DNA of 64,000 bases from Catellatospora sp. TT07R-123 (lineage in GTDB: Bacteria > Actinomycetota > Actinomycetes > Mycobacteriales > Micromonosporaceae): positions 4,588,001-4,652,000 of the forward strand of contig NZ_BNEM01000001.1 in NCBI RefSeq assembly GCF_018327705.1, written 5' to 3'. The notes beneath the pieces were generated by a model, which worked only from the letters and a program-made list of their open reading frames with translations, made no database searches and was not told the origin of the DNA. A program made the position numbers and the translations under genes. Positions 54,280-61,507 of the stretch are shown here, one piece after another (the first letter of the stretch is position 1; every line of letters begins with the position of its first letter).

Positions 54280-57200
54280 TCAGAGCAGCCGCAGCTGCTG
54301 CTCGCGGGGCCGCTGCGGGCTCTGCTCGTTCAGCTGCTCCAGCAGCCCCGCGTCGATGGGCTGGAGGAACGGCGTCGGGCGGCAGTCGCGCTCGCTGCCG
54401 AACCGGGCCCGTCGCGCCGCGTGGCTGACGTACAGCCGCCGCTGCGCCCGGGTCAGGCCCACGAAGAACAGGCGCCGCTCCTCGGCGATCTCCGCCTCGG
54501 TCGGCGAGTTGCCCGGCATCCGCAGCGGGAGCAGGCCGTCCTCGCACCCGGCCAGGAACACCACCGGGAACTCCAGGCCCTTGGCCGCGTGCAGGGTCAG
54601 CAGGGTCACCGCCTCGGCCCGCGGGTCCAGCGCGTCCACCTCGGCGCCGGTCGTCACGTCGGCCAGGAACTTCTGCAGGTCGGCCCCGCACCGCTGGGCC
54701 AGTGGCATCAGCAGGTCGACCGCCGACCACACCTCGTCCGGTTCCGGGGTGGCCCGGCCGAGCGCGGGGCGCTCGATCAGCACCTTCGCGGTCAGCGTCA
54801 GCCGGGCCGCGACGGAGCCGTTCAGGCCGGTGGCCAGCCGCATCTCGGTGACCAGGGCGTTCACCCCGGCGCGGTCGCGCAGCCGGTCGTGCGAGCGCTT
54901 CTGCACCGGCACGCCGGCCCGGGACAGGGCGTCGACGATCGCGGCGGCCTGCGCGTCGGTGCGGTACAGCACCGCGATGTCGTTGAACGACACCGTCGTC
55001 CCGGTCACGCCCCGGGTGTCCGCGCGGGTCCGGTGCGACACCCCGCCGACCAGCTCGTCGACCTTGCGCGCGATGAACGCCGCCTCGTCGGACGGGCTGC
55101 CCGCGGCGAACCGGCCGATCAGCGGGGCGTCGGGGTCGACCCGGGCCGGGTCGAGGCGGCGGCCGGGCACCAGCGACGACGGGGCGATCGCCTGCACCGC
55201 TGCGGCCAGGATCGGCGCGGCCGAGCGGTAGTTGCGGGTCAGCCGCACCACCCGGGCGTCGGTGAAGTCACGGGAGAACTGGAGGAAGAACGAGACGTCC
55301 GCGCCCCGGAACGAGTAGATCGCCTGGTCGGGGTCGCCGATGGCGCACAGGTTGCCGTCGCCGGGCACCAGCAGGCGCAGCAGCGCGTACTGGTCGGGGT
55401 CGACGTCCTGGTACTCGTCGACGAAGACCCACGGCCAGCGGGCGCGCAGCTTGTCGACCAGCGACGGCTGCGCCCGCAGCAGCGTGACCAGCCGCGGCAT
55501 CAACTCGTCGAGCATGATGCCGTCGGGGCAGCCGGGCTCGTCGACGACGGTGAGATTCGGCTCCTGCTCGCGCAGCACCGACAGGGCCAGCGCGTGGAAC
55601 GTCGACACGGTCACGTCGTCGGCGACCGGCCCGAGCAGCGAGGTCAGCCGGTGGCGCAGCTCGTCGGCGGCCCGGCGGGTGAACGTGATCGCCAGGCACT
55701 CCTCCGGGTACACGTTCATCTCGGCGCACAGGTATGCCAGCCGGTGCGTCAGCGTGCGGGTCTTGCCGGTGCCGGGACCGGCCACGATCAGCAGCGGCCC
55801 ACCCGGCGCGGACGCGGCGACGCGCTGCATCGCGTCCAGCCGGTCCAGCAGGCCGGTGCCGACCTCCTCCATCCCCGCGAGCATCGGCTCGAACGGCTCG
55901 TGCGGCGACGCCTCCGGCGCCAGCGGCGGCGCGCTGACCGGCTTGCGCGGCGAGGCGCGCCGCACCACCGGCTTGGCCGGGGTGGGCGCCTTCGGCTTGC
56001 GCGGGGCGGGCACCGGCACGGCGGGCAGGTCGAACAGCGTGTCGGCGGTGCTGTGCGGGCGCAGCTCGTCCGGCTCGAACAGGCGGATCACGCCGTACTC
56101 GCCGTCGTAGCCGGGGACGCGGTGCACGGCGCCGGTCCGCAGCCGGCGCACCGACTCGCCCAGCAGCTCGCCGCCGACCGCCGCGATCTCGGCCACGGGC
56201 ACCTCGGTCAGGATCGACAGCTCCGAGCCCAGGGCCGCGACCAGTGCGTTCACCCTGCCCTCGACGGTACGGGTCTTCGGCCCGACCCCCTCGATCTCCC
56301 CGACGATCTCGGGCAGCTGCACCAGGTGCGTCACGGGCTTGGCGTGCGCCGGGGCGAGCCCTTCGGCCCGGTCGGCCAGCGCCTCGACCCGGGCGAGCAC
56401 GCCGATGGTCAGCGGCCGCTCGCACACCGGGCACAGGCCGCCGGTCTCGCGCGACTGCGCCGGGGTCCAGTTGACCCCGCAGTCGCGGTGCCCATCCCCG
56501 TGGTATTTGCCCTCTTCCGGGAAGAACTCGATGGTTCCGGCCATCCCCGGGCCCCCGGCCAGCGCGTTCTTGACCGCGTAGTAGTCCAGGGGGCAGTCGA
56601 ACCGGGTCGCCTCGCGGGCCAGGGCCTGCGGCGAGTGGGCGTCGGAATTGGACACCAGCGTGTATGCGTCCAGGCTGGACACCCGGTGGTTCATCGCCGG
56701 GTCGCTGGACAGGCCGGTCTCCACCGCCGTGATGTGCCCGGCCAGATCGGCGTAGCAGTCGGCGATCGCGTCGAAGCCCGACTTCGAGCCCAGCGCCGAG
56801 AACCAGGGCGTCCAGATGTGCGCGGGCACCAGGTAGGCGTCCGGGCTGGCCTCCAGCGTGATCTCCAGCAGGTCGCGCGAGTCCAGGCCGAGGATCGGGC
56901 GGCCGTCGCTGGCCAGGTTGCCCACCCGGCCCAGGCGCTCGCGGAACCGCTGCGCCGCATCGAGATCGGGCAGGTAGATGAGGTGATGCACCTTTCGGGT
57001 GCGGTCGCCCCGCTTGTAGATGGTGGAGATCTCGACACTGAGCATGAACCGGGCGGGATCGCCCGAAGCCAGGCGCGGAGGCAGTTTCTGGGCCACGTCC
57101 CGCTCGGTCTCGGGGCTCAACCGGTACAGCCCCGGCTCGGCTTCGCGCAGATGGGTGCGCAGATGCTCGAACCAGGCCGGGTGGGTGACGTCGCCGGTGC

Positions 57201-57336
57201 CCAGCAGCGCGATGCCCTTGCGCCGGGCCCACCAGGCGAGCACGGGCAGCTCAAGGTCCTTGCTGCACGCGCGCGAGTACCGCGAGTGGATATGCAGATC
57301 AGCAGTCCAGACGGGGGGCACACGGAATCCTGACAC
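54280..57336 (-). CDS. EndoQ-like PHP nuclease fused to UvrD-type helicase
   Basis: About 1018 residues from GTG 57336; GTG 57357 and 57321 are alternatives. PHP domain (about 10-300): ADLHIHSRYS (Asp13, His15, His17), GTGD (46-49), Glu102, His173 and NSDAH (Asp232, His234). Cys286, Cys302 and Cys305 (CPVC) suggest a zinc finger, then helix-hairpin-like VGEIEGVGPKT. This is the EndoQ/TIGR00375-type architecture; archaeal EndoQ nicks DNA 5-prime of deaminated bases. After a Pro/Lys linker (about 435-490) comes SF1 helicase: GPGTGKT (520-526), FVDEYQDVDPDQ, GDPDQAIYSFRGA, LTLHAAKGLEFPVVFLAG, and VGLTRAQRRLYVS. Likely a damage-directed nuclease-helicase. Confidence 0.8.
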   Translation of the reverse strand: MSGFRVPPVWTADLHIHSRYSRACSKDLELPVLAWWARRKGIALLGTGDVTHPAWFEHLRTHLREAEPGLYRLSPETERDVAQKLPPRLASGDPARFMLSVEISTIYKRGDRTRKVHHLIYLPDLDAAQRFRERLGRVGNLASDGRPILGLDSRDLLEITLEASPDAYLVPAHIWTPWFSALGSKSGFDAIADCYADLAGHITAVETGLSSDPAMNHRVSSLDAYTLVSNSDAHSPQALAREATRFDCPLDYYAVKNALAGGPGMAGTIEFFPEEGKYHGDGHRDCGVNWTPAQSRETGGLCPVCERPLTIGVLARVEALADRAEGLAPAHAKPVTHLVQLPEIVGEIEGVGPKTRTVEGRVNALVAALGSELSILTEVPVAEIAAVGGELLGESVRRLRTGAVHRVPGYDGEYGVIRLFEPDELRPHSTADTLFDLPAVPVPAPRKPKAPTPAKPVVRRASPRKPVSAPPLAPEASPHEPFEPMLAGMEEVGTGLLDRLDAMQRVAASAPGGPLLIVAGPGTGKTRTLTHRLAYLCAEMNVYPEECLAITFTRRAADELRHRLTSLLGPVADDVTVSTFHALALSVLREQEPNLTVVDEPGCPDGIMLDELMPRLVTLLRAQPSLVDKLRARWPWVFVDEYQDVDPDQYALLRLLVPGDGNLCAIGDPDQAIYSFRGADVSFFLQFSRDFTDARVVRLTRNYRSAAPILAAAVQAIAPSSLVPGRRLDPARVDPDAPLIGRFAAGSPSDEAAFIARKVDELVGGVSHRTRADTRGVTGTTVSFNDIAVLYRTDAQAAAIVDALSRAGVPVQKRSHDRLRDRAGVNALVTEMRLATGLNGSVAARLTLTAKVLIERPALGRATPEPDEVWSAVDLLMPLAQRCGADLQKFLADVTTGAEVDALDPRAEAVTLLTLHAAKGLEFPVVFLAGCEDGLLPLRMPGNSPTEAEIAEERRLFFVGLTRAQRRLYVSHAARRARFGSERDCRPTPFLQPIDAGLLEQLNEQSPQRPREQQLRLL

Positions 57337-57402
57337 GCTTGCTGCCCCCGTCCACACCCGCCACGCACATCCGTGACAGTTCTAACGGAAAACCCCGACA
57401 AT

Positions 57403-58773
57403 TCAGGGGGCGCGCAGCTCCACCAGGGTGACGTCCGGCGGGGCGCCGACCCGGACCGGCGGGCCCCAGTAGCCGGCGCCGTTGGTGACGTACACCTTCG
57501 TGCCGTCGACGTCGCCGAGGCCGGAGATCACCGGCTGCTGCAGGGCCGCGATCAGGTTGAACGGCACCAGCTGGCCGCCGTGCGTGTGCCCGGACAGCTG
57601 GAGGTCGACGCCGTGCCTCGACGCCTCGTGGGCCTGCACGGGCTGGTGGGCCAGCAGGACGACCGGTCGGCTGGTGTCGCGGCCGTCCAGCGTACGGGCG
57701 AAATCCGGTCCCTTGCCCGGTCCGTCGCTCGCGCCGCTGACATCGTTGACCCCGGCCAGGTCCAGGCCGTGGATGGCCAGCCGCTCGTTGCGCAGCGCCC
57801 GCAGTCCGAGCCGTTCCACCTCGGCGACCCACTCCTCGGCGCCGGAGAAGTACTCGTGGTTGCCGGTGACGAAGTAGGCGCCGTTGCGCGAGCGCAGGTC
57901 ACGCAGGGGCGCGGCCTCGTCGGCCAGCTCGGCGACGCTGCCGTCGACCAGGTCGCCGACGATCGCGACGATGTCGGCGTCCATGCCGTTGAGGGCGTTC
58001 ACGATGCGGCGGGTGTGCTCGACGCCGGTCAGCGGGCCGAGGTGGATGTCGCTGGCCAGCGCGATCCGGTAGCCGTCCATGCTGCGCGGCAGCTTGGCCA
58101 GCGGGATCTGGATCCGCTTGACCACCGGCCCGGACAGGGCAGTCTTCGCCCCGTACGCCGTGATCCCGGTCGCGGTGAGCCCCGCGAAGATCGCCGCCCC
58201 CCGCGCGATGAACAACCGCCTGCTCTCGGCCTCCGCCGCCACCGCGCTCGCACCCACACCGCCGCCGCCGCCGTCGCCGTCGCGGTCGCTCGATCGTCCA
58301 ACTTGCCCGGCAATCGGGGCAATGACCGGCTTGCTTTCGCCCGACTGCCCGGCAACTTCGCTGACCTTGGTCAGGCCGACGGACTCGGCGACGATCGTGG
58401 TCTCGGCGACGATCGTGGTCTCGGTGGCGGACGGGGTCGCGGTGGCGGACGGGGTCGCGGTGCGGCGGCGCAGGGACCGGTTGGCGAGGGCGCGCGGGAG
58501 TTCCAGGATCAGCAGGACCAGGAGCAGGTAGAACAGGACGGCGAGCCAGAGGTAGCCGGCCAGGGGGACGAACGTGCTCGCCTTGGCGCCGATCGCGCGG
58601 GGCAGGATGAACGCGCCCAGCAGCAGGGCGACCAGGGCGAACAGGATCGCCGTGCCGATCTTGCGGGCCCGGCCGGGCCGGGTCGTGTCGCGCACCATCC
58701 GCTTCCACAGGTACCAGTGGATCGGGCCGACGACGAGCAGCACGATGCTGAAGAAGACCAGCGCCTGGAGCAC
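57403..58773 (-). CDS. Membrane metallophosphoesterase
   Basis: 456 residues from GTG 58773 (VLQALVFFSIVLLVVG). Four N-terminal helices, a low-complexity Thr/Ser/Val/Gly linker (about 120-190), a Tat-like RRLFIARGAAIFAGL segment, then calcineurin-like phosphoesterase (about 225-440): ASDIHLGPL, VGDLVDG, TGNHEYF, LLAHQP and SGHTHGGQLV. The metal-binding Asp/His set is complete. Related YkuE/YaeI-type enzymes act on phospholipids or UDP-diacyl sugars, or are unassigned. An inverted repeat (58300-58358) lies inside the linker coding region. Upstream moaD starts at 59038 in the same direction. Confidence 0.82.
   Translation of the reverse strand: MLQALVFFSIVLLVVGPIHWYLWKRMVRDTTRPGRARKIGTAILFALVALLLGAFILPRAIGAKASTFVPLAGYLWLAVLFYLLLVLLILELPRALANRSLRRRTATPSATATPSATETTIVAETTIVAESVGLTKVSEVAGQSGESKPVIAPIAGQVGRSSDRDGDGGGGGVGASAVAAEAESRRLFIARGAAIFAGLTATGITAYGAKTALSGPVVKRIQIPLAKLPRSMDGYRIALASDIHLGPLTGVEHTRRIVNALNGMDADIVAIVGDLVDGSVAELADEAAPLRDLRSRNGAYFVTGNHEYFSGAEEWVAEVERLGLRALRNERLAIHGLDLAGVNDVSGASDGPGKGPDFARTLDGRDTSRPVVLLAHQPVQAHEASRHGVDLQLSGHTHGGQLVPFNLIAALQQPVISGLGDVDGTKVYVTNGAGYWGPPVRVGAPPDVTLVELRAP
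58300..58358. repeat. REP-like inverted repeat inside the metallophosphoesterase linker
   Basis: AACTTGCCCGGCAATCGGGG (from 58300) and, inverted at 58336-58358, AAGTTGCCGGGCAGTCGGGC share about 18 of 23 positions. The geometry (two short palindromes facing each other, 59 bp) resembles the 60-bp intergenic repeats, but sequence differs. It codes for a flexible linker, so insertion would be tolerated. Confidence 0.45.
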
Positions 58774-58795
58774 GGTGTTCCTTCGGGTTCGGGGG

Positions 58796-59038
58796 TCAGC
58801 CGCCGGCGAACGGCGGGAGGACGTCCACTGTCGCACCGGTGGGGATCGGCGCGCGACGGTCGTGCCACGCTAGCCCGTCAACCAGGAAGCTGGCTGAAAG
58901 CAGCACCCGGGCGAGAGCATCGCCACGGTTCGCGCCCAGCTCCTTGACCAGCTGGCCGAGGTCGAGCCCGGCCGGGTACGACTCCTCCAACACCCCGGCC
59001 GCGGCCCGGGCTCCGGCGAAGTAGCGCACTGTGATCAC
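58796..59038 (-). CDS. moaD: Molybdopterin synthase small subunit MoaD / ThiS-like
   Basis: 80 residues, beta-grasp fold, GTG start at 59038, C-terminal diglycine (PPFAGG) as needed for adenylylation and thiocarboxylate formation. It starts one base after the moaA stop; GGAGG inside the moaA end serves as ribosome-binding site. With MoaE (49085-49510) it forms MPT synthase. Pairing with moaA rather than moaE places half of the pathway here. Confidence 0.88.
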   Translation of the reverse strand: MITVRYFAGARAAAGVLEESYPAGLDLGQLVKELGANRGDALARVLLSASFLVDGLAWHDRRAPIPTGATVDVLPPFAGG

Positions 59039-60109: not shown

Positions 60110-61507
60110 GTGCTGCTGACCCTCTCCACGACGCACCGCCCGGCCACGGACCTGGGCTACCTGCTGGTCAAACACCCCGAGCGGGTGCACACCTTCGATC
60201 TGAGCACCGGCACCGCGACCGTGCTCTACCCGCAGGCCGACGAGCAGCGCTGCACCATGGCGCTGCTGCTGGAGGTCGACCCGCGCCGGCTTGTGGACGG
60301 CAAGGCCGAGGGACAGCTCAACCAGTACGTCAACGACCGCCCGTACGCCGCATCCAGCCTGCTGGCAGCCGCGCTCAACCGGGTCTTCCGCACCGCCGCC
60401 CGCGGCGTGTCCAAGGACCGGCCGGAGCTGGCCGCCACCGCGATTCCGCTGGAGGTGCGGGTGCCGGTGTTGCGGGCCAAGGGCGGTCTCGCGCTGGCAG
60501 AACGCCTGTTCACCCCGCTGGGCTGGACTCTGGCCGGTTCGGCGCTGCCGCTGGACGAGGCCCGTCCCGAGTGGGGCGACAGCCGCTACCTCGACCTGAC
60601 CCTGTCGGGGCAGGTACGCCTCGCCGACGCACTCAACCACCTGTACGTGCTGCTGCCCGTGCTCGACGACGCCAAGCACTACTGGGTCGCGCCCGATGAG
60701 ATCGAGAAGCTGCTGCGCGCGGGCGAGGGCTGGCTGTCCGCGCACCCCGAGCGGCCGCTGATCATCCGGCGCTACCTGGCGCACAGCCGTGCCCTGGCCG
60801 AGCGCGCCGACGAGCAGCTGGCGCCGCTGGCGGAGGCGGCCGCCGACGACTCGGTCGCCGAGCACGCGGCCGAGAAGCCCAAGCCCCTGAACCTGGTGCG
60901 CCGTGCCGCGGTGCTCGCCGCGCTGGCCGAGACCGGCGCCGCCCGCGTGCTCGACCTGGGGTGCGGCGGCGGGGCACTGCTCGGCGACCTGATGAAGGAC
61001 CAGCGCTACACCGAGATCGTCGGCGCGGACGTGTCGCCCCGGGCGCTGGAGCTGGCCGAGCGGCGGCTGCGCCTGCACCGGCTGCCCGACCGGCAGCGGG
61101 CCCGGATCAGCCTGGTCCAGTCGGCGCTCACCTACGTCGACGAGCGGCTGCGCGGGTACGACGCGGCCGTGCTGATGGAGGTCATCGAGCACCTGGACCT
61201 GCCCCGGCTGCCCGCCCTGTGCGCGGCGGTCTTCGGCGACGCCCGGCCCGGAGCGGTCATCGTGACCACCCCGAACGTCGAGTACAACGTCCGCTACGAG
61301 CACCTGCCCGAGGGCGAGCACCGCCACGACGACCACCGCTTCGAGTGGACCCGGGCAGAGTTCGCGCGCTGGTGCGACGAGGTCGCCGCCGAGTACGGCT
61401 ACACCGTGGCCCTGCGCGGCGTCGGCGACCCCGATCCGGAGGTCGGCACCCCGACCCAGCTCGCCCTGTTCACCAAGGCCACGACCGCGACGGAGGCGGC
61501 GGCATGA
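60110..61507 (+). CDS. hen1: 3-prime-terminal RNA ribose 2-prime-O-methyltransferase Hen1
   Basis: 465 residues from GTG 60110. An N-terminal domain (about 1-240; LLTLSTTHRPATDLGYLLVKHP) supports the ligase of Pnkp. The C-terminal SAM methyltransferase (about 255-460) has VLDLGCGGGALLG. The metal-binding set is EVIEHLDLP (two Glu and His) with HDDHRFEW (His). In bacterial RNA repair, Hen1 methylates the 3-prime end of a cleaved RNA before Pnkp ligates it, protecting the repaired site. Directly coupled to pnkp (ATGA overlap). Confidence 0.93.
   Translation: MLLTLSTTHRPATDLGYLLVKHPERVHTFDLSTGTATVLYPQADEQRCTMALLLEVDPRRLVDGKAEGQLNQYVNDRPYAASSLLAAALNRVFRTAARGVSKDRPELAATAIPLEVRVPVLRAKGGLALAERLFTPLGWTLAGSALPLDEARPEWGDSRYLDLTLSGQVRLADALNHLYVLLPVLDDAKHYWVAPDEIEKLLRAGEGWLSAHPERPLIIRRYLAHSRALAERADEQLAPLAEAAADDSVAEHAAEKPKPLNLVRRAAVLAALAETGAARVLDLGCGGGALLGDLMKDQRYTEIVGADVSPRALELAERRLRLHRLPDRQRARISLVQSALTYVDERLRGYDAAVLMEVIEHLDLPRLPALCAAVFGDARPGAVIVTTPNVEYNVRYEHLPEGEHRHDDHRFEWTRAEFARWCDEVAAEYGYTVALRGVGDPDPEVGTPTQLALFTKATTATEAAA

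Follow-up and report, generated by a model that had tools for sequence, protein, structure and literature searches.

What does a bacterium do with a DNA-damage nuclease that is joined in one chain to a DNA helicase? The question is raised by a gene of Catellatospora sp. TT07R-123, whose 9.17-megabase genome lies in two contigs; the stretch that we analyzed, hereafter the window, comprises 64,000 nucleotides of contig NZ_BNEM01000001.1 (positions 4,588,001 to 4,652,000). The first-pass annotation of the window had described an endonuclease Q (EndoQ)-like nuclease fused to a UvrD-type helicase. Matches to archaeal EndoQ and to PcrA/UvrD confirmed the fusion, and we add the strand (minus) and a C-terminal motif of the beta-clamp-binding type, both of which that description had left out. 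Overall, with a probability of about 0.6, we regard the product as a putative clamp-tethered repair enzyme, chromosomally encoded, of an EndoQ-initiated nucleotide-incision (alternative excision) pathway. Its nearest named relative, from Catellatospora coxensis, reaches 88% across the EndoQ half. In relatives such as locus L004, ATG stands where the GTG start of the window gene aligns. A plus-strand frame across the same bases was set aside, as it looks like a shadow of the minus-strand gene.

The nuclease half matched PfuEndoQ (5zb8) with an E value of 5.5e-49, and of 3.4e-69 when a 31-row profile was used; its PHP residues are H15, H17, E102, H117, H173, D232 and H234. In PfuEndoQ, E76, H84, H139, G169 and S171 have been reported as catalytic and lesion-gating, and the G169/S171 pocket shuts out T and A (PMC8307549). 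The first three of these map to E102, H117 and H173 and the pocket pair to G208 and S210 of the window protein, and all are invariant in the 33 aligned fused homologues. The first-pass annotation had recognized the PHP metal positions and had named their non-conservation in the fused family as grounds for abandoning its reading; since the metal residues are fully conserved, together with those of the lesion pocket, these grounds fall away. One cysteine of the PfuEndoQ Cys4 zinc finger is replaced in 32/33 homologues by histidine (H283, with C286, C302 and C305), which is a plausible zinc ligand. An AlphaFold2 model built from the 33 aligned sequences (predicted local distance difference test, pLDDT, 80.2; predicted template modelling score 0.50) matched the EndoQ fold over this half. 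Thus, compared with PfuEndoQ, TkoEndoQ and the stand-alone Bacillus enzyme, the protein is homologous over the EndoQ length, with the same catalytic and pocket residues and, in the model, the same fold; it differs by its fusion to a superfamily 1A (SF1A) helicase, by the His-Cys3 zinc finger, and by its score against the NCBIfam model TIGR00375 (131.3 bits, below the curated cut-off of 326.6). All 33 aligned members match TIGR00375 at E <= 0.001, the best at 1.3e-53.

The C-terminal half contains the SF1A ATPase motifs, with K525 (Walker A), D640/E641 (motif II) and R963 (motif VI) invariant in the same 33 homologues, and a predicted core fold that matched PcrA in the model. Other SF1 helicases lay far down the match list of the model comparison, which reflects a common core fold and nothing more. 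The NCBIfam pcrA score is 343.5 bits, under the equivalog cut-off of 911.2. The first-pass annotation had called the helicase complete, a description that did not survive measurement. With the same script, we measured the span from TFH to DExQD and the span from YRT to motif V, which we take to be the 1B and 2B subdomains, respectively, in 85 fused proteins with a complete C-terminus (84 distinct) and in 20 UvrD1/PcrA-type controls. The 2B region spans 101-160 residues in the fused proteins (76/85 measurable; 123 in the window protein), compared with 203-270 in the controls; the 1B region spans 60-133 residues (82/85 measurable; 61 in the window protein), compared with 130-136. These controls were used instead of a first set of 16 complete helicases taken as PcrA, of which the script measured just one and whose tails and motif V look UvrD2-type. 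Direct alignment to PcrA agreed with the measurements (88 versus 17 and 128 versus 51 residues between aligned blocks). This half therefore keeps the motor core but has a shortened 2B and, in the genus of the window, hardly any 1B. The 2B subdomain is known to regulate UvrD, Rep and PcrA.

The chain ends in QLRLL. We searched the 85 complete fused proteins for a relaxed motif, Q[LM]x[LF][LFIMV] at most four residues from the end, and for the strict form, Q[LM]xLF, and found them in 78/85 and 25/85 proteins, respectively; shuffled tails match at 0.19% and 0.035%. All strict matches lie outside Micromonosporaceae (25/44, with 38/44 for the relaxed form), and every match inside the family is of the relaxed kind (QLRLL/I/M/V). 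Among the misses, L037 has an unrelated end, the helicase going on in another frame downstream; L056 (LSLL) and L089 (QLTLF) each continue into a longer tail; and L060, L064, L098 and L110 carry QQRLF, QPRLL, QMSFDF and QRTLF followed by EIE, respectively. The motif is absent from other UvrD-type helicases, namely the 16 UvrD2-like proteins (0/16) and the 20 UvrD1/PcrA-type controls (0/20), and in the latter a different terminal segment, usually of the WLVLRxAPxxK type, takes its place. Other fused proteins end in QLSLF or QLDLF, and the beta-clamp-binding consensus is QL[S/D]LF (PMC12309361). Archaeal EndoQ binds PCNA through a C-terminal PCNA-interacting protein box and is stimulated by it, and beta-clamp consensus motifs have already been stated for the C-terminus of bacterial EndoQ homologues (PMC4858679); here the motif stands at the helicase end. 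A comparable arrangement is that of EndoMS/NucS, likewise a nuclease, which binds PCNA in archaea and, in actinobacteria, the beta clamp through a C-terminal xLxLF, the family motif being [E/K][L/Y][T/R]LF (PMC8228993); NucS belongs, however, to another nuclease family, acts on another lesion (mismatches) and has no helicase. The NucS of the source genome itself ends in ELTLF. From the conserved motif, we infer that the beta clamp is the docking site of the QLxLL/F tail.

Table 1. Positions, in the window, of the fused gene, its parts and its upstream neighbour.
Feature	Position	Strand	Remarks
Fused EndoQ-UvrD protein, 1018 amino acids	54280..57336	-	GTG start at 57336, stop at 54280-54282
EndoQ-like nuclease half, residues 11-421	56074..57306	-	Match to PfuEndoQ
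Pro/Ala-rich linker, residues 422-495	55852..56073	-	Low model confidence; conserved xLFD close to the EndoQ half
SF1A (UvrD/PcrA-type) motor, residues ~495-1005	54322..55854	-	2B reduced, 1B nearly absent
Beta-clamp-binding-like motif QLRLL, residues 1014-1018	54283..54297	-	Q1014 invariant in 33/33 fused homologues, L1017 in 32/33
Calcineurin-like metallophosphoesterase, upstream neighbour	57403..58836	-	Upstream in 25/25 named Micromonosporaceae loci; membership of a system not implied

The two halves co-evolve: in 40 proteins, the distances of the N-terminal and C-terminal halves are correlated (Mantel r 0.86), and none of 999 permutations reached as high a value. On the helicase tree, the 40 linked helicases cluster apart from 17 controls (Shimodaira-Hasegawa-like approximate likelihood ratio test, 100), a separate clade that rests on a narrow outgroup because the tree holds only the 16 helicases of the first control set and one UvrD1-type row (L144). 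In two fused loci (L106:5995-8955 and L108:6007-8937), the helicase half has diverged much further than the EndoQ half (branch 1.82), for which a second fusion event or a helicase swap is possible. Rhodococcus rhodnii (L074) and Kibdelosporangium philippinense (L081), members of different families, have near-identical EndoQ halves (branches 0.014 and 0.044), possibly by recent transfer.

We also considered that the fusion might serve co-expression alone, the two halves working independently of each other and their linkage having no mechanistic meaning. The long linker would suit such an arrangement, as its predicted structure has pLDDT below 50 over residues 428-494 (blocks at 30-35), and split genes occur beside fused ones within Gastranaerophilales, whose split rows fall among the fused ones on a quick EndoQ tree. 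However, the fused loci are found in 10 named phyla, and the split copies found stay together: the two genes overlap or lie side by side at L084 (to which L162 is identical), L107, L109, L161, L163 and L164. The split helicases end, in the same order, in QLTLF, QQLKLFLQ, QMTLF, QLSLF, QLSLF and QLSLF, that is, in a clamp-type motif in 6/6. In the Omnitrophota loci L107 and L109, the EndoQ gene also ends in QLTLF, so that each half has a clamp motif of its own, in keeping with action of both at one site; the EndoQ genes of the other four split loci lack the motif. Co-expression as the sole meaning of the fusion therefore appears very improbable to us. A conserved xLFD directly follows the EndoQ half (residues 430-440, window 56017-56049, minus strand), close to the position at which the EndoQ proteins of the split loci L107 and L109 terminate, and 'LF' occurs within 40 residues past the EndoQ half in 27/33 fused homologues; this suggestive element may be a relic or a second clamp motif.

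How far the fusion extends was judged from two kinds of samples. In a scan that yielded at least 583 named relatives and, like its query, favours fused forms, the best 80 comprise 72 fused loci, 3 split ones, 4 with EndoQ alone and 1 that is cut. The first-pass annotation had tied the pathway to a GC-rich genome, and this rationale fails because the 72 fused loci span 10 named phyla and 32-76% GC, with all nine loci titled Gastranaerophilales at 33-41%. Several phyla are represented by one metagenome bin each, for which binning errors are possible; for instance, L066, titled Proteobacteria, clusters with Actinomycetota on the EndoQ tree. That tree, the product of a quick search, has long outgroup branches and does not separate gain from loss. 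The second kind of sample consisted of genomes drawn from individual groups. In the genus of the window, the fused protein is encoded in 11/11 genomes, the source genome included, and an EndoQ domain is present in 172/200 Micromonosporaceae genomes and 38/44 genera; only five family matches among those listed have open frames below 1,000 amino acids, and these come from assemblies of 380-830 contigs. The fused protein is thus core-like in Micromonosporaceae. A phylum-wide draw of Actinomycetota gave TIGR00375 matches in 9/396 genomes, again including the source genome; two are weak (E 9e-5 and 2e-6), and the other seven comprise five frames above 1,000 amino acids, one running off the contig end (L025) and one lone EndoQ (L022). 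Among Pseudomonadota, 18/299 match, with nine frames above 1,000 amino acids and nine shorter (L133 off the contig end). The phylum of the Chloroflexota locus L103 gave 5/201 (a fused form in genome G927, a fused but cut one in G436 and lone EndoQ in the other three), and that of the Gastranaerophilales locus L077 gave 40/146, with 30 frames above 940 amino acids and ten shorter, of which the five examined are four split pairs and one lone gene. The cultured genera with the fusion include Micromonospora, Salinispora and Frankia.

This distribution bears on a role in anti-phage defence, in which the nuclease and a minimal UvrD would, in a Gabija-like manner, attack the DNA of phages, such as uracil-containing DNA or damaged DNA under replication. 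A nuclease with a small UvrD is a common layout of defence systems, and PADLOC models for UvrD-type defence helicases do match the protein (DRT-associated helicase, E 3.7e-65, best, followed by GajB, E 5e-64). An antiviral role has been suggested for Bacillus EndoQ (PMC8307549). Nevertheless, among the PADLOC matches listed (25 of 53), the best stretch lies in the helicase half, as SF1 motifs common to both would lead one to expect; three proteins were scanned against PADLOC, and none of these listed matches is named GajA. Gabija (GajA and GajB) likewise has a nuclease and a small UvrD-type helicase as its two parts, but the nuclease of the fused protein belongs to the EndoQ-type PHP enzymes, and no OLD/GajA-type Pfam match was found among 10 neighbouring open reading frames (ORFs), nor any defence context among those scanned. 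A core-like gene with fixed synteny to a metallophosphoesterase (25/25) and to moaA (24/25) also argues against defence. Among the matches listed, the EndoQ half has none in 50,697 phage records, and no place in 72,556 plasmid records covers 80% of the protein. A defence or mobile origin was rejected, as the PADLOC, phage and plasmid searches yielded, among the matches listed, helicase-type matches or nothing, and we consider a defence role distinctly unlikely.

Taken together with the EndoQ chemistry, the data allow us to put forward a putative mechanism. Archaeal EndoQ has been shown to flip out the damaged nucleotide and to nick on its 5′ side, and UvrD and PcrA move 3′ to 5′. The tail would dock the protein on the beta clamp, and the EndoQ half would, by homology, flip out a deaminated or abasic nucleotide and nick 5′ of the lesion, leaving a 3′-OH and, on the lesion side, a 5′-phosphate. 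The 2B-reduced motor would then load at the nick and move 3′ to 5′ on the intact strand, so that the lesion strand would be peeled off as a 5′ flap while a clamp-bound polymerase extends the 3′-OH; general enzymes are assumed to remove the flap and ligate. The joining of nuclease and motor would in this way couple the nick to its processing. The wider proposal is more tentative, and we would give it slightly less than even chances: in ten phyla, excision would be replication-coupled and independent of glycosylases, with a single clamp-tethered polypeptide that locates the lesion (a deaminated or abasic base), cuts on its 5′ side and unwinds the damaged strand by means of a 2B-less UvrD motor.

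Alternatively, the motor could lead: the helicase would translocate or clear stalled forks or R-loops, and EndoQ would do no more than trim abasic or flap structures, deaminated bases not being the main substrate. The invariant ATPase motifs of the fused homologues are compatible with this, the SF1A relatives PcrA and UvrD act on stalled polymerases and forks, and the same genome has genes of the uracil-DNA glycosylase (UDG) superfamily. However, the lesion-gating residues G208 and S210 are invariant, which argues that base selection is retained, and lone EndoQ persists without a motor in several lineages. We therefore regard a motor-led enzyme as unlikely.

Several points also weigh against the clamp-tethered, EndoQ-initiated repair enzyme that we prefer. 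The activity and clamp binding of the fused members are predicted, as are their incision chemistry, lesion range and direction of unwinding, and the Micromonosporaceae tail, QLRLL of the window included, lacks the final aromatic residue of the consensus. The reductions of 2B and 1B could impair unwinding, and the motor may just translocate or strip proteins. Two UDG-superfamily matches in the same genome make deamination repair at least partly redundant, which leaves the "dedicated" uracil pathway of the first-pass annotation unproven. In the even draw of Pseudomonadota, just 9/18 matches are fused. Fifteen distinct loci (17 tree rows classed as alone, minus PfuEndoQ and a duplicate Devosia row) hold a lone EndoQ with no such helicase on the stretch examined, in some cases a few kilobases; therefore, the motor is not always needed. 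Finally, a DNA-damage promoter was not supported. The candidate, TTGTCGGGG-N8-TAGAAC in the 66-nucleotide upstream gap (window 57337-57402, minus strand), which resembles the RecA-NDp/PafBC promoter, occurs at that position, with 2-3 mismatches allowed, in the three closest genomes only (L001-L003), and the remaining loci of the genus and family have no such site there.

The lone EndoQ rows of Pseudomonadota and Chloroflexota (L131, L132, L134, L135, L137, L138, L139-L141 and L100) have no helicase nearby, and their open frames end without a clamp motif; these lone forms perhaps arose by secondary loss. As for the surroundings of the fused gene in the window, the metallophosphoesterase and moaA lie upstream on its own strand, and a LuxR-type regulator lies downstream; the synteny counts given above refer to the named Micromonosporaceae loci L031-L055, counted apart from the window. 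Over 88 loci, those of the 45 largest ORF clusters that reach far beyond Micromonosporaceae overlap the gene itself. A few genes away, at 60110-61507 on the plus strand, the window encodes a Hen1-type RNA-repair protein (Pfam Hen1_L, E 8.6e-109); Hen1 is usually paired with Pnkp.

For the steps after EndoQ incision, helicase action has already been proposed in archaea (PMC4357722, PMC8438529), proposals that support our reading and slightly lower its originality. An EndoQ-helicase fusion was not found in the titles and abstracts searched, and an earlier mention is possible, for example in papers on the EndoQ structure or on Bacillus pumilus; the available text of PMC4357722, PMC6202378, PMC8438529 and PMC11354406 mentions neither UvrD nor a fusion, and that of PMC4858679 no helicase. 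With a natural fusion in which the helicase carries a clamp-type tail, the helicase-step proposal can be put to a direct test, because tail, pocket and ATPase can be mutated separately. The fusion would also supply a UvrD-type motor from nature that has little of the 2B subdomain. The literature on EndoQ, as far as the available text shows, is mainly archaeal, with some bacterial stand-alone copies (PMC8307549, PMC4858679 and PMC8438529, among others). Against this picture, the architecture is widespread, accounting for 72 of the best 80 named relatives, and the fusion suggests a self-contained DNA repair machine in many different bacteria.

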